Positions 16,377 through 34,871 of a DNA stretch of 64,000 nt are shown one piece after another. This DNA is from Trichocoleus sp. FACHB-46 (GTDB lineage: Bacteria > Cyanobacteriota > Cyanobacteriia > FACHB-46). Position 1 is the stretch's first letter; each line of letters opens with the position of its first letter. The notes under the pieces are model-generated. The model made no database searches, was not told the DNA's origin, and saw nothing but the letters and a program-made list of their open reading frames with translations. The stretch lies in contig NZ_JACJOD010000014.1 of assembly GCF_014695385.1 (NCBI RefSeq), forward strand, positions 186,001 to 250,000, in the 5' to 3' direction. The translations under genes and the position numbers were made by a program.

Positions 16377-16664
16377 GGGACTCTCTCCTGCTAATTAAAT
16401 CTAAGTCAAGCCAATCTCAGCGATCGCAAAAGCACCATTATTCATCAAGCGATCGCAGGTCGTTGCTCACTACTTCTTGCAATATTGCAGCTTCATCCCA
16501 GCTTAGAATCTCCCATTTTAAGGACATCTATTGACGAGATTTAGGCTGGTTCCAAATGGTTTGAGCGATCGCAGCCTTCCAATCATGATTCTTCCTGAAG
16601 AGGAAGCGATTTCCAGCAAGCTCCCCTTAAACTTTTCATGGAGTGACCGGAGCGTAAAGAAGCT
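16377..16664. promoter_or_regulatory. Divergent promoter region with strong minus-strand ribosome binding site
   Basis: These 288 bases separate the MFS gene (minus) from sucrose-phosphatase (plus). On the minus strand AGCAGGAGAGAG occupies 16381-16392 and decides the MFS start. HIP1-type sites occur near 16420, 16450 and 16565. No other feature is apparent. Confidence 0.6.
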
Positions 16665-17411
16665 GTGACGCAATTTCTATTTGTAACCGACCTGGACAAC
16701 ACTCTAGTAGGAGATGCCGCCGCCCTCCAAGTGTTGAACCAAAAGCTAGCCCAGCATCGCCAAGAGCATGGCACCAAAATTGTTTATAGTACCGGGCGAT
16801 CGCTGTCGTCGTACCAAGAACTCAAAGCCGAACAGCAATTGCTAGAGCCAGATGCCCTCGTCGTGGCAGTGGGCACCGAAATTTATTACAACGGCAGTGA
16901 CGCTCCAGATGCGACTTGGTCAGACAAGCTCTCGCACAACTGGGATCGAGATGTGGTGGTGGCTACCGGGGCGCATTTTGCGGATCTAGTACCTCAACCC
17001 GAGCCAGAACAGCGTCCTTTTAAGGTCAGTTATTTCTTGACGGAAGAAGCCGCTGTTGAAGTTTTGCCACAAATCGAAGCGTTATTAAAACAGCGCGGTT
17101 TGGAAGTAAAGCTGATTTATAGCAGTGGCAAAGACTTTGATATTTTGCCTCGCCAAGCAGACAAAGGCATGGCAATGGCATTTTTGCGGCAAACCTGGGG
17201 AATTGACTCTGCCCAAACTGTGGTGTGTGGCGATTCTGGCAATGATTGCGCTTTGTTCTCAGTGGAGAAGGAGCGAGGGATTATTGTCGGTAACGCCCAA
17301 CCGGAAATGTTGGCGTGGCACGAAGCCAACCCCTTCGAGCACCACTACTTAGCTAAAGCTCACTGTGCGGGCGGTATTCTGGAAGGTCTGAACTACTTCG
17401 GCTTTCTCTAA
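16665..17411 (+). CDS. spp: Sucrose-phosphate phosphatase
   Basis: This HAD-superfamily enzyme dephosphorylates sucrose-6-phosphate in the last step of sucrose synthesis, a compatible solute in cyanobacteria. HAD motif I is TDLDNTLVGD with Asp9 (nucleophile) and Asp11, motif II is VYSTGRS, and motif IV is CGDSGNDCALF. The 248-residue length and the FKVSYFL segment of the cap domain fit the SPP family. The start is GTG at 16665, with GGAGCGTAAAGAAG upstream. ruvA follows after 14 bases, so the two may share a transcript. No sucrose-phosphate synthase gene is in the window. Confidence 0.92.
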   Translation: MTQFLFVTDLDNTLVGDAAALQVLNQKLAQHRQEHGTKIVYSTGRSLSSYQELKAEQQLLEPDALVVAVGTEIYYNGSDAPDATWSDKLSHNWDRDVVVATGAHFADLVPQPEPEQRPFKVSYFLTEEAAVEVLPQIEALLKQRGLEVKLIYSSGKDFDILPRQADKGMAMAFLRQTWGIDSAQTVVCGDSGNDCALFSVEKERGIIVGNAQPEMLAWHEANPFEHHYLAKAHCAGGILEGLNYFGFL

Positions 17412-17425
17412 ACTTTTGCTAAACG

Positions 17426-18052
17426 ATGATTGGTTATCTCAAGGGCACCGTCGCCAGCATCCAAAAAAATCCCAGCAATCGGGTCACTCTCACTCTAGAT
17501 GTGAATCAGGTGGGCTACGACATCCAAGTAGTCCCTCGCCTAATTCAACAATTACCTGACTTAGGAGAGCCTGTCCAAATCTTCACGCATCTACAAGTGC
17601 GAGAAGACCAAATGATTTTGTTTGGCTTTGGCACCGCCGCTGAGCGAGATTTGTTTCGCCAACTGGTCAGCGTCAGCGGCATTGGCCCACAACTCGCCGT
17701 AGCGCTTCTAGACAAAATGGGGCTGCAAGACCTCGTGCAGGCGATCGTTTCTGGCAACACGAAAGCTTTGGCCCGTACCCCTGGTGTGGGAGCCAAAACC
17801 GCAGAACGGATTGCCCTAGAACTCAAAACCAAGCTGGCCGAGTGGCGGCAACATACAGGCTTGTCCAGCTTGCCCTCGGCTGGCCCCACCCCTGAAATTC
17901 AAGAAGATGTAGAAATGACGCTGCTGGCTTTGGGCTACACCAGCGACGAGATTATGCAAGCGCTGCAAGCCGTAGGACAAAACACCAGCCTGGCGAAAAA
18001 CTCCGAACCCGATGCCTGGATTCGGGAAGCGATCGCCTGGCTTAGCCAATAG
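17426..18052 (+). CDS. ruvA: Holliday junction branch migration protein RuvA
   Basis: RuvA binds Holliday junctions and loads the RuvB motor in recombination repair. The 208-residue product has the OB-fold N-terminal domain (MIGYLKGTVASI...), two helix-hairpin-helix motifs (SGIGPQLAVALLDKM and PGVGAKTAERIALELK), and the C-terminal domain (DVEMTLLALGYTSDEIMQAL) that contacts RuvB. Its length is normal. It follows sucrose-phosphatase closely. ruvB is not nearby. Confidence 0.97.
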   Translation: MIGYLKGTVASIQKNPSNRVTLTLDVNQVGYDIQVVPRLIQQLPDLGEPVQIFTHLQVREDQMILFGFGTAAERDLFRQLVSVSGIGPQLAVALLDKMGLQDLVQAIVSGNTKALARTPGVGAKTAERIALELKTKLAEWRQHTGLSSLPSAGPTPEIQEDVEMTLLALGYTSDEIMQALQAVGQNTSLAKNSEPDAWIREAIAWLSQ

Positions 18053-18173
18053 AAAACCACTCTTCTGGTCGCTGTCTGTGCTCCTGGAGACTGATGTGGT
18101 TGCTGAGCGAAAAAATTCACAATTGGTAATAAAGTTCTCAGTAATTTCAATTTCCGTTTTCTAAAGGATAGCT

Positions 18174-19844
18174 ATGGTAAGCCCTATTGAGTTCAGCTTA
18201 TTTGCTCCCCGTGTCGAGAAAGTGGCACTCATCGGATCGTTCTTAGACTGGAAGGAGGCGCCGATGACCAAAGGAGAAGATGGCTACTATCGGGCCTCTG
18301 TAGACTTGGAAGACGGAGTTTATCAATACAAATTTCGGGTGCTGTCCAAGACTGAGTACTTGCACGGTCAGTGGCTCGATGTGAACGATCCCTACGCCAC
18401 CGAAATCGACCTCAATACTCAAAATGGCATGATGCGCGTCAAAGATGGGGAAAAGGTCAGCACCTTCTACGAATGGCAGCACGATGATAAACCCTTACCT
18501 GCCAACGAAGAACTCGTCATTTATGAGATGCACATTGCAGATTTCGTAGGTGAAATTGAAGGGGTGACGTTGGGGCAGTATTTTCTTGCCGCGATCGCCA
18601 AACTAGACTACCTCGTAGAACTGGGCATCAATGCAATCGAACTCATGCCCGTGACGGAATACACCGGAAATTACCGCTGGGGCTACTTGGTGCGTTATTT
18701 CTTCGCCCCTGAGTCCAGCTACGGTAATCCAGAAGACTTGAAAAAATTTATTGATGAGTGCCATGCGCGCGGCATTCGGGTCTTGATCGATGGCATCTAT
18801 AACCACTCAGACGGGGAAAGCCCGCTCCTCAAGATCGATCGCGACTACTGGTACTACCACGACATGCACTATCCAGATGACCCAGACAACTTCTGGGGGC
18901 CAGAGTTTAACTACGATGGCTACGATGAAACCCTGGACATCAAACCAGCCTGGAAGTTTATTGGCGATGTCGTGCGCTATTGGGTGCAGGAGTACCACAT
19001 TGACGGCATTCGCTACGATGCGATTCGCCAGTTGGGGAACTACGACTTTTTGTTCTGGCTAACCCAGGAAGCGACGAAAGCCGCAGGCAACAAACCTTTT
19101 TACAACATTGCTGAGCATATTCCAGAGGCCATTTGCGTCACAGAACCGGATGGCCCATTTGAAGGCTGTTGGCATGAAAGCTTCCGCATCTTTGCAATCG
19201 AGCATATTTGCAGCGATAGGTTCGATTTAGCCAAGCTGAAAGAAGCCTTAGATGGTAAGTTCCAAGGTTTTGCGGGTGCCACTTCTGTCGTAAATTATCT
19301 CGCCAGCCACGATCGCGAACGCACTCTAACTGAGTTAGGCGATCGCGGCATCTTTGACCAAGCAGCGTTTCAACGCGCCAAGTTAGGTGCAGTCTTACTG
19401 ATGACCGCAATGGGTCTGCCCATGATTTGGATGGGCGACGAGTTTGGTGAGTATAAGCGTAAAACCGAAACTACAACCCAGCCGAATAAATTGCAGTGGC
19501 ATTTATTAGAACAAGATTTTAACCAAGACTTACTCAAGTACTATCAAAAGCTCATTGCCTTGCGGAAAAAAATTCCAGCCCTGCAAAGTAGCAATGTTAA
19601 TTTTTTCTACGAACATATCGAGAATCAAATATTAGCTTACGTGCGCTGGAATGATATGGGTTCCAGAGTCGTAGTCGTTGCTAATTTCTCTGATCAATCC
19701 TTCCCTGAATATCAAATTCCGCAGTTTCCAGAAGATGGCAATTGGTATGAATGGTTGAACGATCGCCAATACCAAGTAGAAAATGCTTGCCTCACTACGG
19801 AACTCAAAGATTTTGCAGCGAAAGTATTTATCTACCAGCCTTAA
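18174..19844 (+). CDS. GH13 alpha-amylase-family enzyme with N-terminal CBM48-like domain (copy 1)
   Basis: The 556-residue product begins with a starch-binding, early-set domain (residues 1-105; LIGSFLDWKEAPM, DGVYQYKFRV) followed by a GH13 barrel. The catalytic residues are present: DGIYNH (region I, 206-211), nucleophile Asp282 in DGIRYDAI, acid/base Glu314 in NIAEHI, and His379-Asp380 in NYLASHDRE. A beta-rich C-terminal domain closes the protein. It is closely related along its whole length to the next gene. It differs at substrate-facing spots: WGYLVRYFF in place of the usual WGYNPRYFF, and SHDRE in place of NHDHN. It probably acts on alpha-1,4-glucan such as glycogen, as a hydrolase or a branching-type transferase. 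Confidence 0.88.
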   Translation: MVSPIEFSLFAPRVEKVALIGSFLDWKEAPMTKGEDGYYRASVDLEDGVYQYKFRVLSKTEYLHGQWLDVNDPYATEIDLNTQNGMMRVKDGEKVSTFYEWQHDDKPLPANEELVIYEMHIADFVGEIEGVTLGQYFLAAIAKLDYLVELGINAIELMPVTEYTGNYRWGYLVRYFFAPESSYGNPEDLKKFIDECHARGIRVLIDGIYNHSDGESPLLKIDRDYWYYHDMHYPDDPDNFWGPEFNYDGYDETLDIKPAWKFIGDVVRYWVQEYHIDGIRYDAIRQLGNYDFLFWLTQEATKAAGNKPFYNIAEHIPEAICVTEPDGPFEGCWHESFRIFAIEHICSDRFDLAKLKEALDGKFQGFAGATSVVNYLASHDRERTLTELGDRGIFDQAAFQRAKLGAVLLMTAMGLPMIWMGDEFGEYKRKTETTTQPNKLQWHLLEQDFNQDLLKYYQKLIALRKKIPALQSSNVNFFYEHIENQILAYVRWNDMGSRVVVVANFSDQSFPEYQIPQFPEDGNWYEWLNDRQYQVENACLTTELKDFAAKVFIYQP

Positions 19845-19895
19845 AAGCTGCTTTAATTCGCCTATTTCCTGAAACCAACACGCCTACTGCTTGTA

Positions 19896-19917
19896 GGGGC
19901 ACCTCCTGTGGGTGCCC
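19896..19917. repeat. Intergenic hairpin, GGGCACC/GGTGCCC type
   Basis: GGGCACC (19897-19903) and GGTGCCC (19911-19917) form a seven-pair stem with a seven-base loop between the two amylase genes. A similar but perfect palindrome lies at 37347. Such elements are dispersed in many cyanobacterial genomes. No T run follows, so I call it a repeat. Confidence 0.5.
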
Positions 19918-20085
19918 GGTTTGTTCTCATGCCTCAATTTCCATCAGATTGCGATCGCCCCCATCCTAAAGACATAAATCAAAGTAAAGCAGACCTGTGA
20001 TTGTCCTTACCCTAGCGGGATGATTTAATTCAGAAAAAAATCAGAGAATCGTCCTAGATTCAACTCAACTGCTTTCAAAAGTTTT

Positions 20086-21741
20086 ATGTCAAGCCCTATT
20101 GAATTTAATTTATTTGCTCCCTATAACGAAGGTGCTGCTTTAGTCGGGTCTTTTTCTGATTGGGAAGAGATCCCCATGCAAAAAGACAAAGATGGTTTTT
20201 TTCGCACCACTGTTGAACTCAAAGATGGCGTTTATCAATATAAATTCCGGGTGCAATCAAAAAGCTGGTTTTTTGAACCCGATCAGTGGGTAGATGTCAA
20301 TGACCCTTACGCTACGGATATTGATAACCCTACTCAAAACGGTGTGGTGCGGATCAAAGATGGGGAAAGAATTGTCGATACTTACGTCTGGCAACATGAC
20401 GACAAACCCTTGCCGCCCGACCATGAACTAGTGATTTACGAAATGCACGTGGGCGACTTTTCCGGTGGTGAAGACGATCCCCACGCTCGTGGCAAATACA
20501 AGCACGTGATTGAGAAGTTAGACTACCTGTGCGATCTAGGCATTAACGCGATCGAATTGATGCCCGTCAAAGAGTATCCAGGTGACCACAGCTGGGGCTA
20601 CAACCCCCGTTATTTCTTCGCGACAGAATCTAGTTATGGCACCACCGAGGAGCTAAAGCGCCTGATCGATGAATGTCATGGCCGTGGCATTCGCGTGATC
20701 ATGGATGGGATCTACAACCACTCCGAAGCTGAAAGCCCCCTGACCCAAATCGACCACGACTATTGGTATCACCACGAACCCCGTGACCCCGACAACAACT
20801 GGGGACCAGAATTTAATTACGAGCACTACGACGAAAACCTAGACACCTATCCCGCTCGGCGGTTTGCGGGTGATACTGTGCGCTTCTGGACACAGGAATA
20901 CCATATTGATGGCGTTCGCTACGATGCCGCTCGCCAAATCGCCAACTACGACTTTATGCACTGGTTGGTGCAAGAGGCGAAACAAGCCGCAGGTAGCAAA
21001 CCGTTTTACAACATTGCCGAGCATATTCCCGAAAACCCTAGCATCACCAACGTCGATGGCCCGATGGATGGCTGCTGGCACGATAGTTTCTATCACTGCG
21101 TTTTAGAGCATATTTGTGGCGATACTTTTGACCTGGAGCGGCTCAAAGATGTGATTGACGCTAGACGGCAAGGCTTCATGGGAGCCACCAACATCGTCAA
21201 TTACCTCACCAACCACGACCACAACCACATCCTGGCCGAGCTGGGCGATCGCGAAATTTTTGACGAAGAAGCCTTCAAGCGCGCCAAACTAGGGGCAGTG
21301 CTGCTGATGACAGCAATGGGCGTGCCACTGGTTTGGATGGGTGAAGAATTTGGCGAGTACAAATACAAAACCGTAGACCAAGCAAAGATTGAATGGCCCT
21401 TGCTAGGAAATGACTTGAATCGCAGCTTGTGGGATTACTACAAAGGCTTGATCCAACTCCGCAAGAGCAATCACGCCCTGTATACCGAGAATGTCGATTT
21501 CTTCCACGAGAACCCAGAGGCCAAAGTTCTAGCCTATACCCGCTGGAATGATGAAGGTTCTAGAGTCGCCGTTGTCGCCAACTTCTCCGACCAATTTTTG
21601 GCAGGCTATCAAGTGCCCAACTTCCCAGCCAACGGCACTTGGCATGAGTGGACTAGAGACTACGATGTAGAGTCGGGAGACCACAACCTCATCGTTGATT
21701 TGGGTAGCTACGAAGCTCAGGTGTTTGTTTGGCAATCCTAA
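20086..21741 (+). CDS. GH13 alpha-amylase-family enzyme with N-terminal CBM48-like domain (copy 2)
   Basis: The 551-residue product is the tandem paralog of the gene at 18174: the first 60 residues are nearly parallel (MSSPIEFNLFAPYNEGAALVG against MVSPIEFSLFAPRVEKVALIG), and similarity continues to the end. Catalytic residues are intact: DGIYNH, nucleophile Asp280 in DGVRYDAA, acid/base Glu312 in NIAEHI, and NYLTNHDHN. This copy keeps the more usual WGYNPRYFF motif, so it may be nearer the ancestral activity. The two genes are 241 bases apart on the same strand and each probably has its own promoter. The likely substrate is alpha-1,4-glucan. Confidence 0.88.
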   Translation: MSSPIEFNLFAPYNEGAALVGSFSDWEEIPMQKDKDGFFRTTVELKDGVYQYKFRVQSKSWFFEPDQWVDVNDPYATDIDNPTQNGVVRIKDGERIVDTYVWQHDDKPLPPDHELVIYEMHVGDFSGGEDDPHARGKYKHVIEKLDYLCDLGINAIELMPVKEYPGDHSWGYNPRYFFATESSYGTTEELKRLIDECHGRGIRVIMDGIYNHSEAESPLTQIDHDYWYHHEPRDPDNNWGPEFNYEHYDENLDTYPARRFAGDTVRFWTQEYHIDGVRYDAARQIANYDFMHWLVQEAKQAAGSKPFYNIAEHIPENPSITNVDGPMDGCWHDSFYHCVLEHICGDTFDLERLKDVIDARRQGFMGATNIVNYLTNHDHNHILAELGDREIFDEEAFKRAKLGAVLLMTAMGVPLVWMGEEFGEYKYKTVDQAKIEWPLLGNDLNRSLWDYYKGLIQLRKSNHALYTENVDFFHENPEAKVLAYTRWNDEGSRVAVVANFSDQFLAGYQVPNFPANGTWHEWTRDYDVESGDHNLIVDLGSYEAQVFVWQS

Positions 21742-21753
21742 GCTTTTGTTCAA

Positions 21754-21780
21754 AGCTCCTCTCCTCTTTGGAGAGGGGCT
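21754..21780. repeat. Hairpin of the CTCCTCTCC/GGAGAGGGG type
   Basis: AGCTCCTCTCC (21754-21764) pairs with GGAGAGGGGCT (21770-21780) around the loop TCTTT, just after the second amylase gene. Almost the same stem occurs at 38537-38559. There is no clear T run. It may slow or end transcription before rpsO, or be a dispersed repeat. Confidence 0.55.
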
Positions 21781-21899
21781 TGGGGAGAAGTCTGAGGTTT
21801 ATTTATTCTGTGCTCCTTAACAGTTTCACGCTTAATGTCCAGCATCCTTGTGGTAGGATGGTAGACTGCTGAACTTATGATTAGGAAGTAACTGCATCC

Positions 21900-22169
21900 A
21901 TGGCCCTGCTGCAAGAGCGTAAGCACGAAATCATTTCTGACTACCAGGTTCACGAGACTGACACTGGTTCTGCTGATGTCCAAGTTGCCATGCTCACAGA
22001 GCGGATCAACAAACTGAGTGACCACCTGAAGACCAACAAAAAAGATCACGCCTCTCGTCGTGGTCTCTTGAAAATGATCGGTCATCGTAAGCAGTTACTC
22101 GCTTACATCCTGAAACAAGATCAGGGACGTTATAGAGCTTTGATCGGTCGGCTAGGCATTCGCGGTTAG
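21900..22169 (+). CDS. rpsO: 30S ribosomal protein S15
   Basis: The 89-residue product has the S15 pattern throughout: [24 protein letters not shown], then [21 protein letters not shown], and the end [12 protein letters not shown]. It binds 16S rRNA helices early in small-subunit assembly. The pam68-like gene starts 13 bases later, so the two form an operon that ends in the terminator at 22652. Confidence 0.98.
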
Positions 22170-22182
22170 AGGGTAAGCGGTT

Positions 22183-22662
22183 ATGGCTCCTGAATCTGAC
22201 GATCGAGCACGCCTACCTTTTGAACCTACTAAAAATCGTAAAAAAGCTGCCAAAACAGAAAGCTCTAAGCCTCAACCAGTCGTGAAGCAAGAGAGCCAAC
22301 CTAAAGCCAGTACGCAAAAATCCTCTCAGCAGGAAATGGCGATTCCGGATGTAGTCAGCAAGCGTATGGCTCGTCGGATGGCTTTTTTCTGTGGTATCCC
22401 TACGAGTTTAGGGATGGCTACATTTTTTGCGGCTTATTGGGTTGTCAGCCACGACTGGATCAAACTGCCCAACGTAGTAGTCGTACTAGTGAGCATGGGC
22501 TTTTTTGGTCTAGGAGTTTTGGGACTGACCTACGGGGTGCTTTCAGCCTCTTGGGACGAAGAAGCACCAGGTAGCTTACTAGGAGCCTCAGAGTTTGCTA
22601 TCAACTGGGGCCGCATGACCGGAGCGTGGCGCTCTGCGAAACAGCAAAAAGATTCGCCTTGA
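22183..22662 (+). CDS. PAM68 family photosystem II assembly protein
   Basis: The 159-residue protein has a basic, disordered N-terminal part (residues 1-60, rich in Lys, Ser and Gln) and two membrane helices (about 72-92 and 100-122). The C-terminal segment SWDEEAPGSLLGASEFAINWGRMTGAW is typical of PAM68/DUF3464 proteins. In plants and Synechocystis this family helps early photosystem II assembly in the thylakoid. It is co-transcribed with rpsO, an arrangement common in cyanobacteria. The transcription terminator stem includes its last codons and stop. Confidence 0.9.
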   Translation: MAPESDDRARLPFEPTKNRKKAAKTESSKPQPVVKQESQPKASTQKSSQQEMAIPDVVSKRMARRMAFFCGIPTSLGMATFFAAYWVVSHDWIKLPNVVVVLVSMGFFGLGVLGLTYGVLSASWDEEAPGSLLGASEFAINWGRMTGAWRSAKQQKDSP

Positions 22663-22684
22663 GTTTTTCGAGGCGAATTTTTCT
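22652..22684 (+). terminator. Terminator overlapping the end of the PAM68 gene
   Basis: ATTCGCCT (22652-22659) pairs with AGGCGAAT (22671-22678), and a T run follows. The left arm codes for the last two residues and abuts the TGA stop at 22660-22662, so coding sequence and terminator share bases. Confidence 0.85.
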
Positions 22685-22800
22685 TGGCGATCGCTTAATT
22701 CAATCCAGTCAGACCCACAAGCCATTCGGTTATCGCTATCCTGAAACATAGGATAGTTCGTTAAGTCTAATCGCTCTCTTCTAAGCATGAGGACTTCAGC

Positions 22801-23859
22801 ATGATTGTGGTTATGAAGAGCGGCTCGCCGGAAGCCGAGGTTGCTCGTATTACCCAAGAACTCACAACTTGGGGTCTGACACCAGAAAAGATCGTTGGGA
22901 AACACAAAGTTGTCGTGGGTCTAGTGGGGGAAACAGTTGACCTAGACCCATTACAAATTCAAGAAATTAGCCCTTGGATTGAACAAGTTTTACGAGTTGA
23001 GCAACCATTTAAGCGAGCCAGCCGAGAGTACCGCCACGGAGAAGCGGGCGATGTCGTCGTTTCTACACCGAATGGTCCTGTCCATATTGGTGAACATCAC
23101 CCGGTAGTCGTGGTAGCAGGTCCTTGCTCGGTCGAAAACGAAGAAATGATTGTGGAAACGGCGCGGCGAGTGAAAGCGGCAGGCGCACATTTCTTGCGGG
23201 GCGGTGCCTACAAACCTCGGACTTCACCCTATGCCTTCCAGGGCCACGGGGAAAGCGCTCTGAACCTGCTGGCCGCAGCTCGTGATGCCAGTGGCTTGGG
23301 AATTATCACCGAAGTCATGGACGCGGCTGATTTAGACAAGATTGCCGAAGTGGCAGATGTGGTGCAAGTCGGTGCCCGCAATATGCAAAACTTCTCGCTC
23401 TTGAAGAAGGTGGGGGCTCAAGATAAGCCTGTGCTGCTGAAGCGGGGGATGTCGGCCACGATCGAAGAATGGCTGATGGCAGCGGAGTACATTCTAGCTG
23501 CGGGAAACTCTAACGTGATTTTGTGTGAGCGTGGCATTCGCACGTTCGATCGCCAATATGCCCGCAATACACTGGATCTGTCTGTGTTGCCTGTGCTGCG
23601 ATCGCTCACCCACCTCCCGATCATGATTGACCCCAGCCACGGGACAGGCCGAGCAGAGTACGTCCCTGCAATGGCAATGGCGGCGATCGCAGGTGGCACT
23701 GACTCACTGATGATCGAAGTCCATCCCAATCCCAAGAAAGCCCTCTCCGATGGCCCTCAATCCCTCACACCCGATCGCTTTGACCAGTTGATGAAAGAGC
23801 TAGCAGTAGTGGGTAACGCTGTGAATCGTTGGCCTCAATCTGCGGCAGCGATCGTTTAA
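22801..23859 (+). CDS. aroF: 3-deoxy-7-phosphoheptulonate synthase (DAHP synthase, AroH/KDO8P-like type)
   Basis: This enzyme joins phosphoenolpyruvate and erythrose-4-phosphate in the first step of the shikimate pathway. Residues 1-70 form the ferredoxin-like domain of this subtype (MIVVMKSGSPEAEVARI). The barrel carries VVAGPCSVENEEMI, LRGGAYKPRTSPYAFQG, VQVGARNMQNFSLLK, KRGMSATIEEW and DPSHGTGRAEYV. The length of 352 residues is normal. The gene is monocistronic with an intrinsic terminator directly after it. Confidence 0.96.
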   Translation: MIVVMKSGSPEAEVARITQELTTWGLTPEKIVGKHKVVVGLVGETVDLDPLQIQEISPWIEQVLRVEQPFKRASREYRHGEAGDVVVSTPNGPVHIGEHHPVVVVAGPCSVENEEMIVETARRVKAAGAHFLRGGAYKPRTSPYAFQGHGESALNLLAAARDASGLGIITEVMDAADLDKIAEVADVVQVGARNMQNFSLLKKVGAQDKPVLLKRGMSATIEEWLMAAEYILAAGNSNVILCERGIRTFDRQYARNTLDLSVLPVLRSLTHLPIMIDPSHGTGRAEYVPAMAMAAIAGGTDSLMIEVHPNPKKALSDGPQSLTPDRFDQLMKELAVVGNAVNRWPQSAAAIV

Positions 23860-23885
23860 AGCTCGGCAACTTTAATAAATCAAGG

Positions 23886-23925
23886 AAAGGAGGAGAGCTA
23901 ATTCAAAACTCTTCTCCTTTTTTTG
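23886..23925 (+). terminator. Terminator after the DAHP synthase gene
   Basis: AAAGGAGGAGAG pairs with CTCTTCTCCTTT (one mismatch) around an AT-rich loop, and a run of Ts ends at 23924. It stands between this gene and the convergent hepT gene and could serve both directions. Confidence 0.85.
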
Positions 23926-23926
23926 A

Positions 23927-24274
23927 TCAATATTCTTGATCCAAAATTTGTCGAATCTCTGCATCTAGTGAAGGAATTTTATTGGCAATCACATCCCACA
24001 CAATGTCGTAGTCAACGCCGAAATATTTGTGAATTAGGCGATCGCGCATCCCAGCCATTGCTCGCCATTCAATATCAGGGTATTTCTCACGTAAAGGCTC
24101 AGGAATTCGCTTGACTGCTTCACCAATTATTTCGATACTCCGTACAAAAGCTCGTTTGAGTGTTTCGTCTTGCACAAAGGTTGCTTTCTCTAAACCCGCA
24201 GAACTTTCCAGGATGTAAGCGGTCTCATCAAGAATGTGCTGTAAATATTCACGGGCTGACAGAGACATATTCAA
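23927..24274 (-). CDS. hepT: HepT-like ribonuclease toxin (DUF86)
   Basis: The 115-residue helical protein has the HEPN signature R-x4-H-x-Y at Arg77-His82-Tyr84 (RDRLIHKY), which is the RNase active site of HepT. The [11 protein letters not shown] helix and the [13 protein letters not shown] segment are typical of DUF86. Its first codons overlap the last 26 bases of the mntA gene upstream, so the two are translated together. In the characterised HepT/MntA system the antitoxin attaches AMP units to the Tyr of this motif and so blocks the RNase. The start may be the Met at 24274 or the one two codons later. Confidence 0.92.
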
Positions 24275-24563
24275 CTTCTTCTAGAATGCGCGGGCCAATG
24301 TAGGGGCTTAAAGACTCAACTGTAAGTAGGTCAACGGCTCGACCAAAGAGGTCTTCTAGAAAAAAAGACAGGTGCATGAAGTTGTCGAATGTCTTTTGCT
24401 CTGGCTCAAAAACGACCAAAACATCAACATCACTTTGCTCGTGAATTGCAGTATCGCGCACAAAGGAACCAAAAATACCACAACGTTGAACACCAAAACG
24501 CCGTAATTCCTGTTGATGTTGCTTCAGAAGATCAAGTACTTGAGTTTTGGTTTGAACAGGCAT
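24249..24563 (-). CDS. mntA: MntA-like minimal nucleotidyltransferase antitoxin
   Basis: The 104-residue product is a minimal nucleotidyltransferase: GSF at 32-34 ([21 protein letters not shown]) and the metal-binding Asp45-x-Asp47 pair. Residues 60-95 make the short helical tail ([19 protein letters not shown]). In the HepT/MntA type VII toxin-antitoxin family this protein neutralises HepT by adding AMP to its active-site Tyr. The stop codon lies inside the start of hepT, as usual for this pair, with the antitoxin first. Such pairs are mobile accessory genes in cyanobacteria. Confidence 0.92.
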
Positions 24564-24695
24564 TTTAACTGATACCTACTTAGGCTGCGATCGCTTGACT
24601 CAAGCTTTACAAATTAGAAACCTGTTGGATAAAGTCAGCTGTTGACTAATGTAAGAACCAAATATATTAGCCACAAAGATGCATCAAGCAGATAC

Positions 24696-25412
24696 TTATA
24701 TTTCGCTGCGATGAGGTAGTGAGACAACTTCTTCTAGAAGTATTTTTTCGTCCCGGTAAGACAACTTGTAGCAAATCTCTCGGCCTGGGGCAACTGCCCA
24801 AAAATATAAGGGTTTCGCAAAAGCGCAAAGCTCATATTTAGGATGATTTGACTTGCATTTACAGTCATTTTTGCTATGTTGACCCTGTTGACAGCAATAA
24901 TGATAGTCTTCAATTAATTTCTCAAACTCCCGGCTATCTTTTTTCACCTCTCCACAGATCATAATGTTGCCGGCATGAGATTTTATGACCAGATCGACTC
25001 CACGAGCTAACGCTCCAAAATCCTCTCTTCTCGCTTCTATCTGCACCTGGGATATGTCCCAACCATATTTCAAGATTAATGCTGATGCAGCTGAAAGTTG
25101 ACTAATACCCTCCCGAAATAAAGCCCGTGTCCTACGACCCTTATAAGCAAAATGCCAGAATAGTTGAAAACCTTTTTGTTGCCCTTTGCTTCCACTTGCT
25201 GTCAGTAGAAGGGAACTTTGAGCATAGCCTCCTTCATCAATACTAAAGAGCTGTGCTTCTAACCCTAAGATAAAATATTTTGCTTCATCGCTGTCTAGGG
25301 CAGGATCGATACGCAAAGCAGGTTTACCATCTGCTACAGACTCATGAACCGGAAGATTGGCATACTTCTCTGCTAGATATTCTTCTAACTCGTATATCCA
25401 ATTTCTCTGCAT
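24696..25412 (-). CDS. Orphan protein with PD-(D/E)xK-like nuclease pattern
   Basis: I recognise no family. The 238-residue product has a segment GVDLVIKSHAGNIMICGEVKKD in which Asp140, Glu155 and Lys157 fit the D...ExK core of PD-(D/E)xK nucleases (two hydrophobic strands and the right spacing). Shortly after comes a Cys-rich patch, Cys173-Cys174...Cys184-x-Cys186, which could bind zinc. The N-terminal 100 residues may be a recognition domain. No signal peptide or membrane helix is seen. It lies 132 bases upstream of the mntA-hepT pair on the same strand, so it may belong to one accessory island. A restriction or defence role is inference. Confidence 0.5.
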   Translation of the reverse strand: MQRNWIYELEEYLAEKYANLPVHESVADGKPALRIDPALDSDEAKYFILGLEAQLFSIDEGGYAQSSLLLTASGSKGQQKGFQLFWHFAYKGRRTRALFREGISQLSAASALILKYGWDISQVQIEARREDFGALARGVDLVIKSHAGNIMICGEVKKDSREFEKLIEDYHYCCQQGQHSKNDCKCKSNHPKYELCAFAKPLYFWAVAPGREICYKLSYRDEKILLEEVVSLPHRSEI

Positions 25413-25758
25413 ATTAATTGTGTTGAAGAATTACTGATGAGTTCTTAGAAAACTCACTTTCCAATAGTATCAAAATTCATTTGTCTGTCATTAGTAAGTC
25501 AAAAATTGTTCGTTGAAGATTTTTATTTATTCAATCTTTGTGAAACTTTGGTAAAAGAGTAATAGAAAGCATACTCTTGTCTGAAAAAATTTATGGTCAG
25601 ATAGTGCAGCTCAAACTTAGAGGTGATAGTGCGATCGCCCCTCTCTCAGCCCTCTCACCACTTCTCTAGTTATATTTTCTGAGGGAAAGCTTATGTTATG
25701 GGTAAATTTCTTGGTAGGAAAGATAACCTAGGGATGTAGCCTTCAGACTGGCTGAGTC
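25413..25758. other. Intergenic region before the Eis-like acetyltransferase
   Basis: This AT-rich gap of about 345 bases between divergent genes should contain promoters for both. I see one HIP1 site near 25632 and no gene, RNA or repeat. Confidence 0.5.
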
Positions 25759-27024
25759 ATGACCACAAACCTGACCGGGATTACGCTGCGACAAGCCGAA
25801 GAAACCGACCTCCCCCAAGTCGTTAACTTAGACCGATTAGCCTTTGCTCCCTTGCGATCGCCTGCTGAGATTGAACGCGATTGGTATGGTCAAGGGCTGA
25901 ACCTACCGGGTCGCCAGCACATGCTTGCCGTGGATGACTTAACTGGGCAGGCTGTTGCGACCTATGCTCAGCTTGACCTCAGCGTCGTGCTGGAAGGGCA
26001 AGGGTTTACCACAGCGGGAGTAGCTGGGGTGGCGGTAGCTCCAGAGCGACGGGGCCAGCGAATTGCGCGGTTTATGTTGGAGCAAGGGGTACAAGAATGG
26101 CGATCGCAGCAAATACCCCTAGCCATGCTTTACCCGTTTCAGCACGGCTTCTATCGGCAATTGGGTTGGGCTTGGGTGGGGCGGCTGCACCAATATACCG
26201 TGGCAGCAAAGCATCTACCGCTGTATCCAGAGCGGTTTGGTATGGTGCCCTACGACCCGAAACACCATCAACCAGCCCTGCAAGACGCATATCAACGCTC
26301 AGCTTTGCGGCGGAATGGGTGGTTGCAACGGCAAGAGCTACAGTGGCAACCCCGCCTGAAGCCAGAACCCGGAAAAGAAATCTACTGTTATCAAGAAGCA
26401 GGTAAGCTACTCGGCTACATGATTCTGCAATATGCGGCTGCGGATTCTCTTCCCGGTACGCTCTCTGTGGTGGTGCAAGAATGGGTGGCGCTAAACGCTG
26501 ATGCTTATCGGGGGATTTTAGGTTTTCTCTCAGCGTTGCGAGATCAAGTGCACACCGTAGTTTGGAACACTTACCCAGAAGACCCGTTTCCCTATTTAGT
26601 GCGGGAGCAGCACCGGGTTTTAGAGGTGAACCAAGCTCCCCGCCTCTATGGCTTTACCCATCGCTTTGGCGAGATTGGCGGTGGTTTCATGTGGCGCTTG
26701 GTGGATCTAACCACCGCTTTTCGGCTCCGTCCAGTCAAGCAGGGTTCTCCCTTTATCTTGACTTTCCAAGTCAGCGATCCAATCCTGGGCGACCAGACGA
26801 TCACGGCTAACTTTACGGCAGAACGAATGCACCCCGTGGCGCAGCCTGTGCCTGCGGTCGTGAAGACTTCTGTGGAACACTTGACCGAACTATTTTGTGG
26901 CTTGCGACGGGCGACAGAAATGGTTTGGACGCGAGAAATTGAGTACGAGGGCGATCGCGCTTTGCTGCAAAAGTTGGATGCCGCTTGGCAATGCACGCCT
27001 CCCTTCTGCTGGGACTATTTCTAA
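25759..27024 (+). CDS. GNAT acetyltransferase, Eis-like
   Basis: The 421-residue product matches the Eis layout: an N-terminal GNAT domain (residues 1-150, with VAGVAVAPERRGQRIARFML as the acetyl-CoA loop), a second GNAT-like domain (about 160-300), and a C-terminal sterol-carrier-like domain (about 310-421) ending CTPPFCWDYF. Eis proteins acetylate amines on aminoglycosides or peptides. The final Phe carboxylate, which acts as general base in known Eis enzymes, is conserved here. The physiological substrate in cyanobacteria is unknown. The gene is single and convergent with the next one. Confidence 0.88.
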   Translation: MTTNLTGITLRQAEETDLPQVVNLDRLAFAPLRSPAEIERDWYGQGLNLPGRQHMLAVDDLTGQAVATYAQLDLSVVLEGQGFTTAGVAGVAVAPERRGQRIARFMLEQGVQEWRSQQIPLAMLYPFQHGFYRQLGWAWVGRLHQYTVAAKHLPLYPERFGMVPYDPKHHQPALQDAYQRSALRRNGWLQRQELQWQPRLKPEPGKEIYCYQEAGKLLGYMILQYAAADSLPGTLSVVVQEWVALNADAYRGILGFLSALRDQVHTVVWNTYPEDPFPYLVREQHRVLEVNQAPRLYGFTHRFGEIGGGFMWRLVDLTTAFRLRPVKQGSPFILTFQVSDPILGDQTITANFTAERMHPVAQPVPAVVKTSVEHLTELFCGLRRATEMVWTREIEYEGDRALLQKLDAAWQCTPPFCWDYF

Positions 27025-27034
27025 TCCAGCGTTA

Positions 27035-28333
27035 TTAAGCGTCTTCTTCTGACTCGTCCACAGCATTAGTAGCTTGGAAGGCGTTCAAATTCTTGAGTTG
27101 CTGATCAACACTTTGCAGAAGCTGATTCAGAGCAGGCAAAGCGTCTAAGGGCGTACCATTCAAGCTCAAATCCGTTTGGGTGCGATCGCGAATTTCATCC
27201 AACTTGCGCTGCAATTGCTGAGCAATACCCAAAGCATCTCGGCTGAGGTTAGCTAATTGCTGCTGCTGATAAAACTTTAAGGCTGCCCCTCGTAAAACCT
27301 GTAGTGTGGCTTCTTCTCCATAGGTACCAGGCATAACCCGAAACCGTAACAGGAGACGAGACTGTTGATACAGGCGCTCGACTTCTTCCTGCCTCGGCTT
27401 CTCGACAGGAATCATGGGTAGGTTTGTCAGCCGCTTCAGTTCGTTGATCACGCCTTGGAAGACAGCAGCAGGCAAATTTTCTAAAACGGATTGCAGAACC
27501 CCATTTTGGCTCCACAGAATCCGTCCCTGATGCTGCTGTCGCTCAAAATAAAGCCGACCAATCCCACCCACCAAGACTCGCCCTAGCAGTTCATCCAGCA
27601 AATTCTTGGGCGGCAGGGCGGTGAGTACCTCAATCGAGCTAGATAAATGTTGTGGGTGCACGTCTAAGACTGGCAGCGCTGGAACAGCAGACGTTGGAGG
27701 CACCTCTGGAGGCGCAGAAATCTCTGAGGCAGGGCTCGGCTTGGTAGAATTAGCGACTGGTTTGGTAGACGCAGGTTTGCTAGGGCTAGGAGATGTGGCG
27801 GCTGGTGCCATGAACTCAGTTTCGTCTGTTTTGAGTCCAGGAATGTCTAGCCTTTCGGGGCTGTCCACCACTAGGGTTGGTTGGTTGTTGCGCTCTGACG
27901 GATCGGTGGGGCGAGGTTTGGAGGTGGAGCTAGGCGTAGAAGGTTGAGCGAGCCTAGGAGCCGCTTTCTGCGACTTCTGCTTCTGCTGATCTGCGTGGCT
28001 GAGATAAGCAGAGAGCATTTTCTGATGAGTTTCTGAGGAGATGGAGCGAGGGACTAATGAGCAGTTGATATAAGCCAAAATCCTGCGGACATAGTCTAAA
28101 GCGGCTGTATCCTCTAAATTCACCATACCTAAGTTCATGCGGCTCCCTTCTACGGATAAAGGCAGCACTTGGTGATAGAGACAAGCCTCAAAAGGGAGCA
28201 GGCTATCAATCAACTGAAACATTTGCGCGGAGTCCAGCCAAGCCATACCGTCGCTTTGAGTTGACGATAAAGAGGGATGATTACCAGGGCTGGTGTCCTG
28301 ACGCCCGCCGCGATCGCCTAAGGGAGACGCCAT
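27035..28333 (-). CDS. PilB/GspE-like protein without an ATPase domain
   Basis: The 432-residue protein starts with a MshEN/GspE N-terminal-like domain (about 40-115: LPFEACLYHQVLPLSVEGSR...LGMVNLEDTAALDYVRR). A Pro/Ser/Thr-rich linker (115-235) follows. The next domain (about 240-370) resembles the middle part of PilB, with GRLYFERQQHQGRILWSQNG, LPMIPVEKPRQEEV and LRFRVMPGTYGEEATLQVLR. There it stops: no Walker A, Asp box or Walker B is present, so it cannot be a pilus motor by itself. A short helical tail ends the protein. It may modulate type IV pilus or secretion ATPases, which is inference. No pil genes are adjacent. Confidence 0.65.
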   Translation of the reverse strand: MASPLGDRGGRQDTSPGNHPSLSSTQSDGMAWLDSAQMFQLIDSLLPFEACLYHQVLPLSVEGSRMNLGMVNLEDTAALDYVRRILAYINCSLVPRSISSETHQKMLSAYLSHADQQKQKSQKAAPRLAQPSTPSSTSKPRPTDPSERNNQPTLVVDSPERLDIPGLKTDETEFMAPAATSPSPSKPASTKPVANSTKPSPASEISAPPEVPPTSAVPALPVLDVHPQHLSSSIEVLTALPPKNLLDELLGRVLVGGIGRLYFERQQHQGRILWSQNGVLQSVLENLPAAVFQGVINELKRLTNLPMIPVEKPRQEEVERLYQQSRLLLRFRVMPGTYGEEATLQVLRGAALKFYQQQQLANLSRDALGIAQQLQRKLDEIRDRTQTDLSLNGTPLDALPALNQLLQSVDQQLKNLNAFQATNAVDESEEDA

Positions 28334-28452
28334 AGAAACTCATTAAACTTGATTACCTACTATCCTAATCGGGCCAGTCATTAAAATCCCGGATTAAGCT
28401 CAGCAGATTCAACCAGATTGTGTAAAGAACTTCAGCCGTTACTGCAGTTAAT

Positions 28453-29583
28453 TTAAGAAGCACTACGGAGTTCTTGAGCCGCGAGATAAAGCTTGCTCCA
28501 TTCCCCCATGACTTGATTGGTCTTCAAGTTCAAGTCACCTGCGATCGCTTCTAGAGTGCAGCCTTCCCGAAGACGGTCCAACAGTTGGCGTTGTTCTGGA
28601 GTGAGTTTATCGACATATTGCTGCCACTGCTCCGGCGTTAACCCTAGGCTGTGTTCTTGCAGCGAAGTCTCCAGCCAATTTGCCACTAATTCTGGTTCGT
28701 TTTTCAGCGCGAAAACCCGAATCGCGTGATAGCTGATTTTCTCTCGCAACCGATAAACTTGCTTGATCGGCAGGTCTAGAGTCCGAGCGATCGCTTCTTG
28801 CGAGTGGCCTTGGAGATAAAGCTGTAGCCAACGGGCTGCATCTGGCTCTACTTTCTCCGCTAGGTATTGCTCAAACGATTGCTTCACGGCAGTTCGAGCC
28901 ATCTGCTGTTCTTCCCAAGCTTGTTCGTCTTGGTACTGAGAAACGGCCTGATTGTCGAGCAAGCTGACGGGGTTTTCGGCTTCATCGGGGGTGATTTCTT
29001 CCGAAACTAGCCGCACTAAATCGCCACTGGGAACTTGAGTCATGCCACCGCGTTGAGAGCGGCGCAAGTAGTTAACAAAGCGATAGACGAGCAACGGTTG
29101 ATTGCGGATGGGTCTGAGGCAGTACTCCTCGACGCTCGCTAGGAGCAAGTTATTCCGCATCCGGGAGTCTGAGGTGCATTGAGCAATCCAAGTGACTTGC
29201 TGTTGCATGTAGCCGTCACTTTGCAACAGTTCCTGAATCACTTCCTGCAACACATCGACGACAGAGCGTTGGCGATCGCGGCTGAGTGCGACCCAAGTCT
29301 TAATCTTGTTACGAATGAGAAATAAGCTACTAAGGCGCTGAATGAGCTTACGGTAAGCCCGCTCTGGCCCTACACCCAGATAGCGCTGCTGCAAAATGCG
29401 ATAGCGATAATCCATTGCTTGCTGAACAATCGCGAGTTGGTCAGAAGTTAACGTGTCAAAACGCGCTAAATCCTCTCCCATCAGCCAACGGATAATACTT
29501 TCCCGATGCGCCACAGATTGCTCTGAGCAGTCTGTTTCAAGTTGCGATCGCCAGTCATTTGCCAGTTTGTCTGCCAGTCTCAT
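28453..29583 (-). CDS. HetZ-related regulator
   Basis: The 376-residue protein is all helical. Its C-terminal part, from about residue 235, parallels the HetZ-like fragment at the left edge of the window: a sigma-like helix-turn-helix (QEAIARTLDLPIKQVYRLREK), the signature WLETSLQEHSLGLTPEQW, and a second helix-turn-helix (EAIAGDLNLKTNQVMGEW). HetZ-type proteins are DNA-binding regulators in filamentous cyanobacteria, and this one fits the group annotated as HetZ-related. No PatU-like gene is near it. It is transcribed alone, and the downstream neighbour is the PilB-like gene on the same strand 120 bases away. Confidence 0.7.
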   Translation of the reverse strand: MRLADKLANDWRSQLETDCSEQSVAHRESIIRWLMGEDLARFDTLTSDQLAIVQQAMDYRYRILQQRYLGVGPERAYRKLIQRLSSLFLIRNKIKTWVALSRDRQRSVVDVLQEVIQELLQSDGYMQQQVTWIAQCTSDSRMRNNLLLASVEEYCLRPIRNQPLLVYRFVNYLRRSQRGGMTQVPSGDLVRLVSEEITPDEAENPVSLLDNQAVSQYQDEQAWEEQQMARTAVKQSFEQYLAEKVEPDAARWLQLYLQGHSQEAIARTLDLPIKQVYRLREKISYHAIRVFALKNEPELVANWLETSLQEHSLGLTPEQWQQYVDKLTPEQRQLLDRLREGCTLEAIAGDLNLKTNQVMGEWSKLYLAAQELRSAS

Positions 29584-29878
29584 TGGAGTTGCGATCCTTT
29601 TAGTCCCTACCTATAGAGTTTGTGGCCAACCCTTCCGCTTGGCCCTCACCCACATGGGTAAAAATATCGCTTACTAATACGTAAATTTACGTTACTTAAG
29701 CTCAAGTGTCGGGGCATCGTTAACTTTATGTCTGCCATTAGTGTTGGTTTACACCTCGAAACCTGTACCAGACTCCGTACCAGACAACCAGGTTTCGTGA
29801 TTGCTTTGGATGACTATAGCAATCCCAAATGAGGATGACTAGCCGCAGGCAGTAGCTCCGAGAGCGGCTGATAGTAGC

Positions 29879-30175
29879 CTAATAGTCACTATTATCGCTG
29901 CTGTCATCAATCGAAATAACCAAACGTTCCAATGCCTCAGTAAGGTGATTCAATCGCTCCAGGGAATGGTTTTGAGTTTCAGCCAACGTCTGCACAGCAT
30001 CGCTCAAAGCAAAGATTTGGTATCCCTGTTGCTGCACCTGTTGAGATTGTTGTTGTACCTGAACTGCTAAAGCATCTACACGCTCCGCCAAGCGGTCAAT
30101 GGTCTCGGTGGTCACTAGTACAGCTTCACCAATTTGCTGAATAATCGATTCTAAGCGGCTTACTCTTACTTCCAC
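29879..30175 (-). CDS. Small coiled-coil protein
   Basis: The 98-residue product is almost entirely a predicted coiled coil with regular hydrophobic heptads (RVSRLESIIQQIGEAVLV, DRLAERVDALAVQVQQQ, LERLNHLTEALERLV) and a Gln-rich middle. A short acidic tail (DDSSDNSDY) ends it. Proteins of this form are common in cyanobacteria and have no known function; some sit next to toxin-antitoxin or type IV pilus genes. Here there is no informative neighbour. The start is the ATG at 30175. Confidence 0.6.
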   Translation of the reverse strand: MEVRVSRLESIIQQIGEAVLVTTETIDRLAERVDALAVQVQQQSQQVQQQGYQIFALSDAVQTLAETQNHSLERLNHLTEALERLVISIDDSSDNSDY

Positions 30176-30925
30176 GCCTCAGAGTCCTTATCATCAGATT
30201 GCAGTTTGAGCCAAAACCTAGTTTCCTAGGCCTGAGTTAGCGTTTGCACCCTAAAGTCGTAAACTCTTAGCTGTTAGTTGTCAAGGCATCACTGCTCTCT
30301 GAAGCTAGCTTTTCGGGCTGTACAGCCATATTCCAGCGTACAAAGGTATCAAGCTAGTACCGATGATTTGACTCAGCTAAGACATGAATAATCATCTGTT
30401 GTAGCATCTTCTCCGGATTAACCCGCCAGGTTTGCAAATCTACTCAATTTAATCCCTGAGCGGCCCTCACTTGATAGCCAACACAAATTGCATTAGCTCA
30501 GCATAGTGACCTGAAGGTATTTGGCTCGATAAAAGTTTTACGCAGGTCCATGATGGCTGACTCAGAAGGAAGGGGTAAGCTCAAACGAGTCGAATTTAAG
30601 TCTTGTGTTAGGTAAATCTTTTGGGTAGAGATCGCCGAGCTTCGGCTGTTTGAGGCCACCAAATTGAGGGATTCAAAATCTAGAAGATCAAGACAGGCTG
30701 GTCAAGCAGCTAACTTAGGGTTTCAACTATCAGCAATGCTGCTTACACGCGTTAGGCTGAAATTCCAAAGCAGCTTCATCGAATCTTTATAAAACCGCAG
30801 GGTTATGAACCAGGCAATGAAGATTTGGACAAGCCTTGTGGAGAGGGCTATCACTGTTAATCGAGTCCCGTCTATATATTAGTGGTGCGTACGTGCTTCT
30901 ACGGTCCTATAGTGACAGGCTTGTC
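30176..30925. other. Long intergenic region before the sugar-phosphate transferase
   Basis: This gap of about 750 bases lies between divergent genes. I find no reading frame of convincing length and no structured RNA. It presumably holds the transferase promoter and perhaps a long leader. The frame of the transferase extends back to 30836, but that part looks untranslated. Confidence 0.5.
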
Positions 30926-31603
30926 ATGACGACGCATTCTGTATTGTCTCCGATATCTAGCCCCTTCACTGTACCGGAATCTGTCTTTCAGGTTCCTCAT
31001 CCATCAACCTGCTCTGTAGCGAAACGGTTGCTTGACATTTTCGGCAGTGTAATCGGCCTATTGATTCTGGCGCTCGTGTTCGTCCCTGTGGCGATCGCGA
31101 TCAAGCTAGATAGCCCTGGCCCAATTTTCTATAAGCAAAAGCGTTACGGCCTACATGGTCGACCTTTTGAGATCCGCAAATTCCGCTCTATGGTGGAAAA
31201 TGCTGAAGCTCTTAAGGCGCTGATTCCCAACGAAGCCCAAGGCTTAATCTTCAAGAACCGCGAAGATCCTCGCGTCACTCAAGTCGGTCGTTTTTTGAGA
31301 CGCACTAGCCTTGATGAATTTCCCCAATTCTGGAATGTGCTGAGCGGGGAAATGAGTTTGGTCGGCACTCGCCCCCCAACTGGTGACGAAGTCGTTCACT
31401 ATGATGAGCACCATTGGCAGCGCTTGTGTGTCAAGCCCGGTATTACGGGAGAATGGCAAGTGAATGGTCGTTCTTCAGTCAAGGACTTCGAGAAGATTGT
31501 TGAGCTAGATTTGCGCTACCAAACCCATTGGACCCCTCTGTACGATTTGACAATCATCTTCAAAACCGTATTTGTGATTTTTGCCAAAACTGGGGCCTAC
31601 TAA
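30926..31603 (+). CDS. Polyprenyl-phosphate sugar-1-phosphate transferase
   Basis: The 225-residue product, started at the ATG at 30926, is the catalytic part of the bacterial sugar transferase family that begins exopolysaccharide repeat-unit assembly on undecaprenyl phosphate. It has one membrane segment (SVIGLLILALVFVPVAIAI), then the active-site region LDSPGPIFYKQKRYG, FEIRKFRSM, TSLDEFPQFWNVLSGEMSLVGTRPP (Asp-Glu pair) and KPGITGEWQVNGRS. It lacks the four-helix N-terminal part of WcaJ-type proteins, as in the short PglC-like class. A terminator follows, so it is transcribed alone. No glycosyltransferase cluster is adjacent. Confidence 0.92.
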   Translation: MTTHSVLSPISSPFTVPESVFQVPHPSTCSVAKRLLDIFGSVIGLLILALVFVPVAIAIKLDSPGPIFYKQKRYGLHGRPFEIRKFRSMVENAEALKALIPNEAQGLIFKNREDPRVTQVGRFLRRTSLDEFPQFWNVLSGEMSLVGTRPPTGDEVVHYDEHHWQRLCVKPGITGEWQVNGRSSVKDFEKIVELDLRYQTHWTPLYDLTIIFKTVFVIFAKTGAY

Positions 31604-31930
31604 CCCACGAACTCAGCCGCGATCGCCTCACTTTCAAGGCTGAAAAAAGACAGCATGCTCTAGTTCCACCACTCTGTCCTTAAAACGGCAGGGTGGTTTT
31701 TTGTAGCGGGGCAATGGAGCCTCAGAGTCACAAATAGCGGGCTGGAAAACAGATTGATGATGCTTTGTTGTCCTCACTTCATGCTAGCGTTAGCGCAACT
31801 ACGGGAGAGTTGCTTGAACATTCACAAATGCAAATCAATGGGCTCAGACAAGAACTGACATACCGAGCGATGTCATTAGTACCGCCAGTAAAGCAAAACT
31901 CCCTAGTTGGTGATGTGAGGAAGTGCCGCA
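31604..31930. other. Intergenic region before the YdcF gene
   Basis: These 327 bases hold the terminator of the sugar transferase at 31666 and otherwise nothing recognisable. A frame of 36 codons from an ATG at 31827 overlaps the next start codon, but it has no ribosome binding site. Confidence 0.5.
31666..31702 (+). terminator. Terminator after the sugar transferase
   Basis: CCACCACTCTG pairs imperfectly with CGGCAGGGTGG around a loop TCCTTAAAA, followed by TTTTTT. It lies about 60 bases after the stop codon. Confidence 0.75.
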
Positions 31931-32974
31931 ATGTTTGAACTATTAACCTTAGTTCTGCTGTGGCTGCTAGTCGGCATAATTATCTGGTACGTCCTACAGA
32001 AGCTGATTCCGAAGGAGTACTACACTTGGCTCGGTGCCTTTGTGATGGTGTTATTCATCATTCTGGCCTTCCTAACGCCAACCAGCCGAGTCGTCTCCAC
32101 AGTTTGGAGCGTGTTATCGCTGCCCTTCAAGCCGCTTGGCTTATCGTTGTTGCTGCTAGCTGCTGCTGCCGCCAAGATGGATAAAGGCGGGCTGAAAAAG
32201 CCGGGGGGTACTTTGGTGATCGCTGCCCTGTTAATTTTGCTAATTTCCAGTACTCCTTTTGTGGCCTATGCACTGGCCCAAAAAACCGAGCAGGCCGCCA
32301 TTCAGTTCGATCAGCAACGGCGGGAACTTTGTGACCTCCAGTGCCCGACGACGCTGACCCCTCCAGAAGGACAAACAGCAGCAGCGATCGTGGTGTTGGG
32401 ATGGGGAACCACGCAGGCGAATCTACCCTATCGGCGGCAGATTCAGCTGACGGATACGGGCGATCGCATTATTTACGCTGCCCAACTGTATCAAGACCAA
32501 CTACGGCTAGGGAATAGGCCTTTGGTGATCGTCAGTGCAGGCCCTAGGGGCGATTTGCAAGGCAAGCCTGAGGAAATCGTGGAAGCGAGGGACATTGAAA
32601 CCTTACTGATCAATATGGGAGTGGCTAGAGACGACATTGTGGTGGAACCGACTGGCGTGGATGTGCGTACTAGCGCTGTCGCCGTAGGACGAATTTTGAT
32701 GGAGCGGCGGTTGGGCGATCGCGTGATCTTAGTTTCTTCTGCCACGAATACTAGGCGAGCCGCTTTAACCTTTGCCAGGGTAGGCATTCGAGTTATTCCT
32801 CGACCCACGAATTTTTATACCTTTGAGTCGGGTGGCAGTCTCAAGCGCAGATTACGGATTGCCGACTTTGTCCCCAGCGCTGACACTCTGGTAGTCACGA
32901 CTCGCGTGATTGAGGAATATTTGCTCTCGGTGTACTACTTCTTACGCGGCTGGCTCGCACCTTTGGGCATTTAG
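31931..32974 (+). CDS. YdcF/ElyC family membrane protein (DUF218)
   Basis: The 347-residue protein has four membrane helices in residues 1-115 and then a Rossmann-like DUF218 domain (about 135-320). Family marks are AAAIVVLGWGT, the RNRPLVIVSAGPRGD-like strand-loop, and VILVSSATNTRRAALTFAR near the end. E. coli ElyC and SanA of this family act in cell-envelope maintenance and have poorly known activities. The active domain follows the last helix and is likely periplasmic. The gene runs in the same direction as the ABC exporter 69 bases downstream, so they may be co-transcribed. Confidence 0.85.
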   Translation: MFELLTLVLLWLLVGIIIWYVLQKLIPKEYYTWLGAFVMVLFIILAFLTPTSRVVSTVWSVLSLPFKPLGLSLLLLAAAAAKMDKGGLKKPGGTLVIAALLILLISSTPFVAYALAQKTEQAAIQFDQQRRELCDLQCPTTLTPPEGQTAAAIVVLGWGTTQANLPYRRQIQLTDTGDRIIYAAQLYQDQLRLGNRPLVIVSAGPRGDLQGKPEEIVEARDIETLLINMGVARDDIVVEPTGVDVRTSAVAVGRILMERRLGDRVILVSSATNTRRAALTFARVGIRVIPRPTNFYTFESGGSLKRRLRIADFVPSADTLVVTTRVIEEYLLSVYYFLRGWLAPLGI

Positions 32975-33043
32975 CTTGGCTCGCAGGGGAGTTGCCTGCT
33001 GCTGAGGTAATTCGTTTAGGATGATCAAAAGGTTGCTGGATTT

Positions 33044-34798: not shown

Positions 34799-34871
34799 GA
34801 ACCAAAATCTGGGGTCGCAGTTTTGTGGCAAAAACGTTTATGTCAATAAACAGTGATATGATTGCCCTACT

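Follow-up and report, generated by a model that had tools for sequence, protein, structure and literature searches.

The stretch of Trichocoleus sp. FACHB-46 DNA analysed here (64,000 nucleotides, referred to below as the window) contains a gene with an ATG start that is followed on the same strand, after 132 bases, by an mntA-like gene, and the latter overlaps a hepT-like gene (Table 1). The hepT-like and mntA-like products both score below the NCBIfam equivalog cut-offs. The first of these open reading frames and its distance from mntA are as the initial annotation gave them, and the reading frame is a real gene under purifying selection. Each of the three genomes covered by the search in this genus has it, with the copies of the two congeners (G386 and G387) at 83-85% DNA identity. 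The pairwise protein identities within the genus are 85.3, 84.5 and 84.8%, the changes fall mostly at third codon positions, and the dN/dS values for the three pairs are 0.073, 0.122 and 0.067.

Table 1. Features of the nuclease locus and its surroundings, in window coordinates
Feature	Coordinates	Strand	Remarks
Gene for a predicted stand-alone PD-(D/E)XK-type nuclease	24696-25412	(-)	238 aa; putative active site D140, E155, K157; E101 in preceding helix
Putative catalytic segment, residues 140-158 (D140 to E155-V-K157-K158)	24939..24995	(-)	Coordinates from residue numbers; equivalent in 8/8 members
Cys patch, residues 173-186 (C173, C174, C184, C186)	24855..24896	(-)	Coordinates from residue numbers; genus-specific
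mntA-like nucleotidyltransferase antitoxin gene	24249..24563	(-)	104 aa; Pfam NTP_transf_2, E 2.1e-13; neighbour outside the nuclease system
hepT-like RNase toxin gene	23927..24274	(-)	115 aa; Pfam HepT-like, E 6.3e-29; neighbour outside the nuclease system
Junction of two syntenic blocks	24596..24692		97 bases; collinear matches stop at 24595 and resume at 24693

The initial annotation recognised no family for the 238-residue protein, and searches of Pfam, NCBIfam, PADLOC, PHROGs and PDB sequences likewise place it nowhere. The last four returned zero matches, and the only Pfam row is HSDR_N_2 over residues 110-165, with an E-value of 0.18 and a score of 12.3 bits, below the cut-off of 25; Mrr_cat (PF04471) was not reported by the Pfam scan of this protein. 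A PADLOC scan extended to the eight members of the family described below gave a single match (E 0.047). We recognised no publication as describing the family, which is weak evidence, the protein having no name to search by.

The family is rare and patchy, because searches of genomes, plasmids, phages and viruses yielded so few members. Among 386 Cyanobacteriota genomes, a sample that excludes the two congeners, the protein query and the family profile found the window's own genome only, the profile being without a match in all 385 others. One match of the protein query in these genomes, in G297 (16.9 bits, one internal stop), was set aside as chance. The same was done with 13 weak rows (13.2-17.3 bits, most interrupted by stops) spread over seven of the 194 relatives searched, in which the gene itself was recovered from its own genome and the two congeners. 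A plasmid search revealed a relative in Rhizobium phaseoli (E 0.01, 26% identity), and from its sequence another one was reached in Variovorax, so that two members of the family are plasmid-borne. Three further members, from an Acetobacteraceae MAG, Sphingomonas alba and a Geobacteraceae bacterium, came from a scan of genome_contigs. In the 398 genomes of the phylum of the Sphingomonas member the profile detected that member and none in the 397 others, and in 392 relatives of it, that member and one N-terminal fragment. The fragment (L122 1414-1698) is another family member, from a relative of Sphingomonas alba, and is ended by the end of its contig. No member was found in phage records or viral_contigs, and a Foldseek comparison with viral models had no row at E 0.001.

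The resulting set consists of eight distinct members from Cyanobacteriota, Alpha- and Betaproteobacteria and one Geobacteraceae bacterium. Judged by sequence comparison, the distant relatives are true homologues of the window protein: a profile built solely from five members of the proteobacterial type retrieves its reading frame at E 4.1e-11 among the 1361 ORFs of the contig, with the next row at E 0.47. The pattern D-[LIVM]-x(13-15)-E-[VI]-K-K is kept in all eight proteins, in which E101 of the preceding helix, the GW that follows this helix and F204-W205 of the last core strand are also invariant. In the window protein the acidic and basic positions of the pattern are D140, E155 and K157, located where the initial annotation had put them. 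The equivalence of D140 rests on BLASTP and on spacing: the BLASTP pairing with the Rhizobium protein aligns it with the Asp of that protein, but MAFFT puts it in an insertion, in a column unaligned with the Asp of the relatives, and a domain-only alignment left this gap unmended. The bare motif D-x(8-22)-[DE]-x-K was rejected as evidence on its own, given that it occurs in 7407 of 10000 shuffles of the protein, which itself contains three. What raises the motif above chance is its conservation in the whole set together with the fold match of a modelled relative and the profile similarity to Mrr_cat.

This similarity was measured by profile-profile comparison (hhalign) of the family with 19 Mrr_cat domains and with 16 HSDR_N_2 domains, 300 column shuffles serving as the null. 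The comparison with Mrr_cat scored 29.8 (pairwise E 0.00039, probability 35%), a value reached by none of the 300 shuffles, the best of which scored 19.3, and the reversed alignment scored 10.3. In the Mrr_cat alignment the conserved Asp and Lys are in register, and E155 faces the Gln of the QxK form. HSDR_N_2 gave a score of 20.0 with a probability of 2%, which two of the 300 shuffles reached. Mrr_cat against HSDR_N_2, used as a positive control, scored 40.5.

The initial annotation had proposed structure prediction and a fold search. The AlphaFold model of the window protein is poor (pLDDT 45.5) and was kept out of the fold search, which was made with an AlphaFold2 model of the Geobacteraceae relative (L025), built with four members and having a pLDDT of 81.4 and a pTM of 0.83. 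L025 is 24% (BLASTP) or 28% (MAFFT) identical to the window protein. Its model contains helix 100-115, strands 123-125, 134-136 and 147-151, helices 155-169 and 181-196 and strand 200-204, and this alpha-beta-beta-beta-alpha-(alpha)-beta order is that of PD-(D/E)XK enzymes; D133 lies next to the second core strand, and E150/K152 lie at the third. The model is less certain at residues 139-143 and around the active site, with a mean pLDDT of 66-68 for residues 121-150. We thus find the alpha-beta-beta-beta-alpha-beta core in the predicted structure of the relative and infer it for the window protein. With this model, the top two rows of Foldseek are both BsaXI, at E 0.02 and 0.07, and none reaches E 0.001; VIA-align likewise ranks BsaXI highest, with Z-scores of 9.2 (151 residues, 3.3 A) and 8.7, followed by a drop to 5.8. 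Its first ten rows (Z of at least 5.0) are made up of restriction-type nucleases, tRNA-splicing endonucleases of related fold and the uncharacterized protein 6okh. Support for the initial assignment to the PD-(D/E)xK class comes from the distant homologues, from the profile comparison and from the fold of the modelled relative.

The CC...CxC patch that was pointed out in the initial annotation consists of C173, C174, C184 and C186, which sit between the second core helix and the last core strand; of 10000 shuffles of the protein, 143 contain four Cys within 14 residues. These residues are present in three of the eight members, all from this genus, and are absent from the five others, i.e., Cys ligands shared by the whole family, which would be a mark of a zinc knuckle, were not found. 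The patch may be a candidate metal site and is no family trait.

The initial annotation had also linked the gene to the HepT/MntA pair, and comparison with the two congeners speaks against this link. The run amylase - S15 - 159-aa gene - aroF - hepT - mntA is complete in both G386 and G387, where HepT is 90 and 86% and MntA 96 and 97% identical to the window proteins, and no nuclease gene is found beside it. The nuclease gene of G386 is located 456 kb from aroF-hepT-mntA, next to the GNAT gene that also adjoins it in the window, and that of G387 is on another contig than aroF-hepT-mntA, beside other genes. The adjacency seen in the window coincides with a block junction: window positions 11967-24595 match G386 2,021,026-2,032,712 and positions 24693-41169 match G386 2,488,623-2,506,047 in the contig comparison, the blocks following the same order in one direction save for gaps and a cross-match of tandem paralogues. 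A comparison of contig C14 with about 195 kb of G386 revealed no reciprocal junction, and the junction is either a true rearrangement or a misassembly. In both cases the adjacency is unconserved, and the blocks are apart in the congeners. In both congeners S15 and aroF are preceded by two tandem genes that we assign to the alpha-amylase type, with about 60% protein identity (L120 2343-5970 and L121 1723-5262), and DNA matches point to this pair in the window too, near 18173-21741.

The nuclease gene is next to mntA in one of the three genomes of the genus, that of the window, and among the eight genomes or records in which a member of the family occurs, HepT adjoins the family gene in this one only. 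The co-occurrence check thus returned no HepT gene beside any of the seven other members, and four of those seven records have no HepT match at all. It is therefore very improbable that the nuclease gene is an accessory third gene of the HepT/MntA module, as its position 132 bases away on the same strand might suggest. A partial parallel is offered by the Rhizobium plasmid, whose family gene has an NTP_transf_2 gene at a distance of about 1.1 kb, though on the opposite strand and in a record without HepT. We reject the partnership on the grounds of synteny, and the adjacency of the toxin-antitoxin genes looks accidental rather than functional.

The defence setting proposed in the initial annotation has weak and mixed support across the relatives. 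In the Geobacteraceae record the family gene is followed directly downstream and on the same strand by a Mrr_cat gene (E 2.2e-15) and an AbiTii gene (E 4.2e-49), and the three genes in series (L025 687-3101) form a possible small defence cluster. In the scans, which covered selected genes beside the relatives, no clear defence neighbours were detected next to relatives other than this one. An HNH gene is situated beside the Acetobacteraceae copy; the HNH gene adjoining in L023 is PtuB-like (E 0.00045), and L019 has a WYL regulator at a distance of 1.7 kb. The gene immediately upstream of the family member on the Rhizobium phaseoli plasmid (L003 1843-3323) resembles Brig1, an antiphage DNA glycosylase, but weakly (E 0.00044 and 19.8 bits, where the cut-off is 230). 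The chromosomal neighbours within the genus are ordinary GNAT, transporter or epimerase genes, by our assignment of the reading frames. The Geobacteraceae neighbourhood, the HNH gene of the Acetobacteraceae copy, the two plasmid copies and the patchy spread point to a role in defence, which is plausible, if unproven. The occurrence of the gene in three of three genomes of the genus, on the other hand, suggests that it resides there stably and is not a mobile defence gene.

The explanation that we favour, with a probability of about 0.68, is that the gene encodes a solitary metal-dependent PD-(D/E)XK endonuclease of a rare unnamed family, with a likely accessory role in restriction or defence that is independent of HepT/MntA. 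The parts of this reading differ in strength: the nuclease fold is highly probable, catalytic activity is predicted and has good odds, and for a defence or restriction role the odds are about even. In such an enzyme, about 90 residues at the N-terminus would make up a helical/beta lead-in and about 150 at the C-terminus the nuclease core, where D140 and E155 would hold Mg2+ and K157 would position or activate the water that breaks the phosphodiester bond, as in BsaXI and HsdR. Cutting, target and purpose are here what we infer: the substrate would probably be DNA, and an accessory restriction- or defence-type nuclease would be the most likely role.

A PD-(D/E)XK enzyme could also serve repair, recombination or RNA processing instead of defence. 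This alternative, which we consider unlikely, would fit the occurrence of the gene in all three genomes of the genus, its purifying selection and its ordinary chromosomal neighbours, and the structural matches include Hjc resolvases and tRNA-splicing endonucleases. One would, however, expect a house-keeping repair enzyme to be spread more widely than a family that is very patchy, missing from all 385 other Cyanobacteriota genomes of the sample and all 397 other genomes of the phylum of the Sphingomonas member, and in part carried by plasmids, and for this reason such a role is disfavoured. Inactive members exist in the PD-(D/E)XK superfamily, of which Pfam names NA-iREase1, and the protein might accordingly be a catalytically dead one that binds nucleic acid or a partner; with D, E and K kept in eight of eight members from distant groups, this is improbable. 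A bolder version of the nuclease reading, to which we give somewhat less credence than to a repair or processing enzyme, is that the proteins represent a new family, made up of single-gene antiphage nucleases or of modification-dependent restriction enzymes, which plasmids would have spread thinly and which would be resident in one cyanobacterial genus, where a metal-binding Cys loop would have been gained that senses or grips the target.

The preferred reading of a solitary endonuclease supplies a probable functional class for a protein left unnamed by four family libraries, and the eight sequences, together with a usable model of one of them, make a set for testing. A false lead is also removed: as the toxin-antitoxin neighbour looks accidental, there would be no point in searching for a three-gene module.

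The family itself is rare and unnamed, and its kind, the PD-(D/E)XK nuclease, is well known. Its likeness to HepT/MntA, a type VII toxin-antitoxin system, is limited to the unconserved adjacency in the window, and these are separate protein families. The nuclease domain of HsdR (HSDR_N_2, PF13588; EcoR124I, 2w00) resembles it in fold (Z 5.0) and in the weak Pfam match, but the family protein has no helicase domains and stays below the gathering score of 25 bits. Mrr_cat (PF04471) is related at the profile level, with D and K in register, but has QxK where the family has ExK, and the 238-residue protein does not reach its Pfam cut-off. The best structural match to the family model is the N-terminal endonuclease domain of the Type IIB restriction-modification enzyme BsaXI (PDB 8w2p, 8w2q), at 11% sequence identity across the match. 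The BsaXI RM chain has 914 residues, with the nuclease fused to a methylase, and acts together with an S subunit, whereas the family protein has 238 residues and no Pfam methylase domain, which sets it apart from the fused-methylase Type IIB/IIG enzymes. In BsaXI, cutting depends on every one of the residues E73, D90, E105 and K107 (PMC11997821); the structural alignment does not display which residues superpose, but the 15-residue step from D90 to E105 in this D-x14-E-x-K arrangement is the same as that from D140 to E155.
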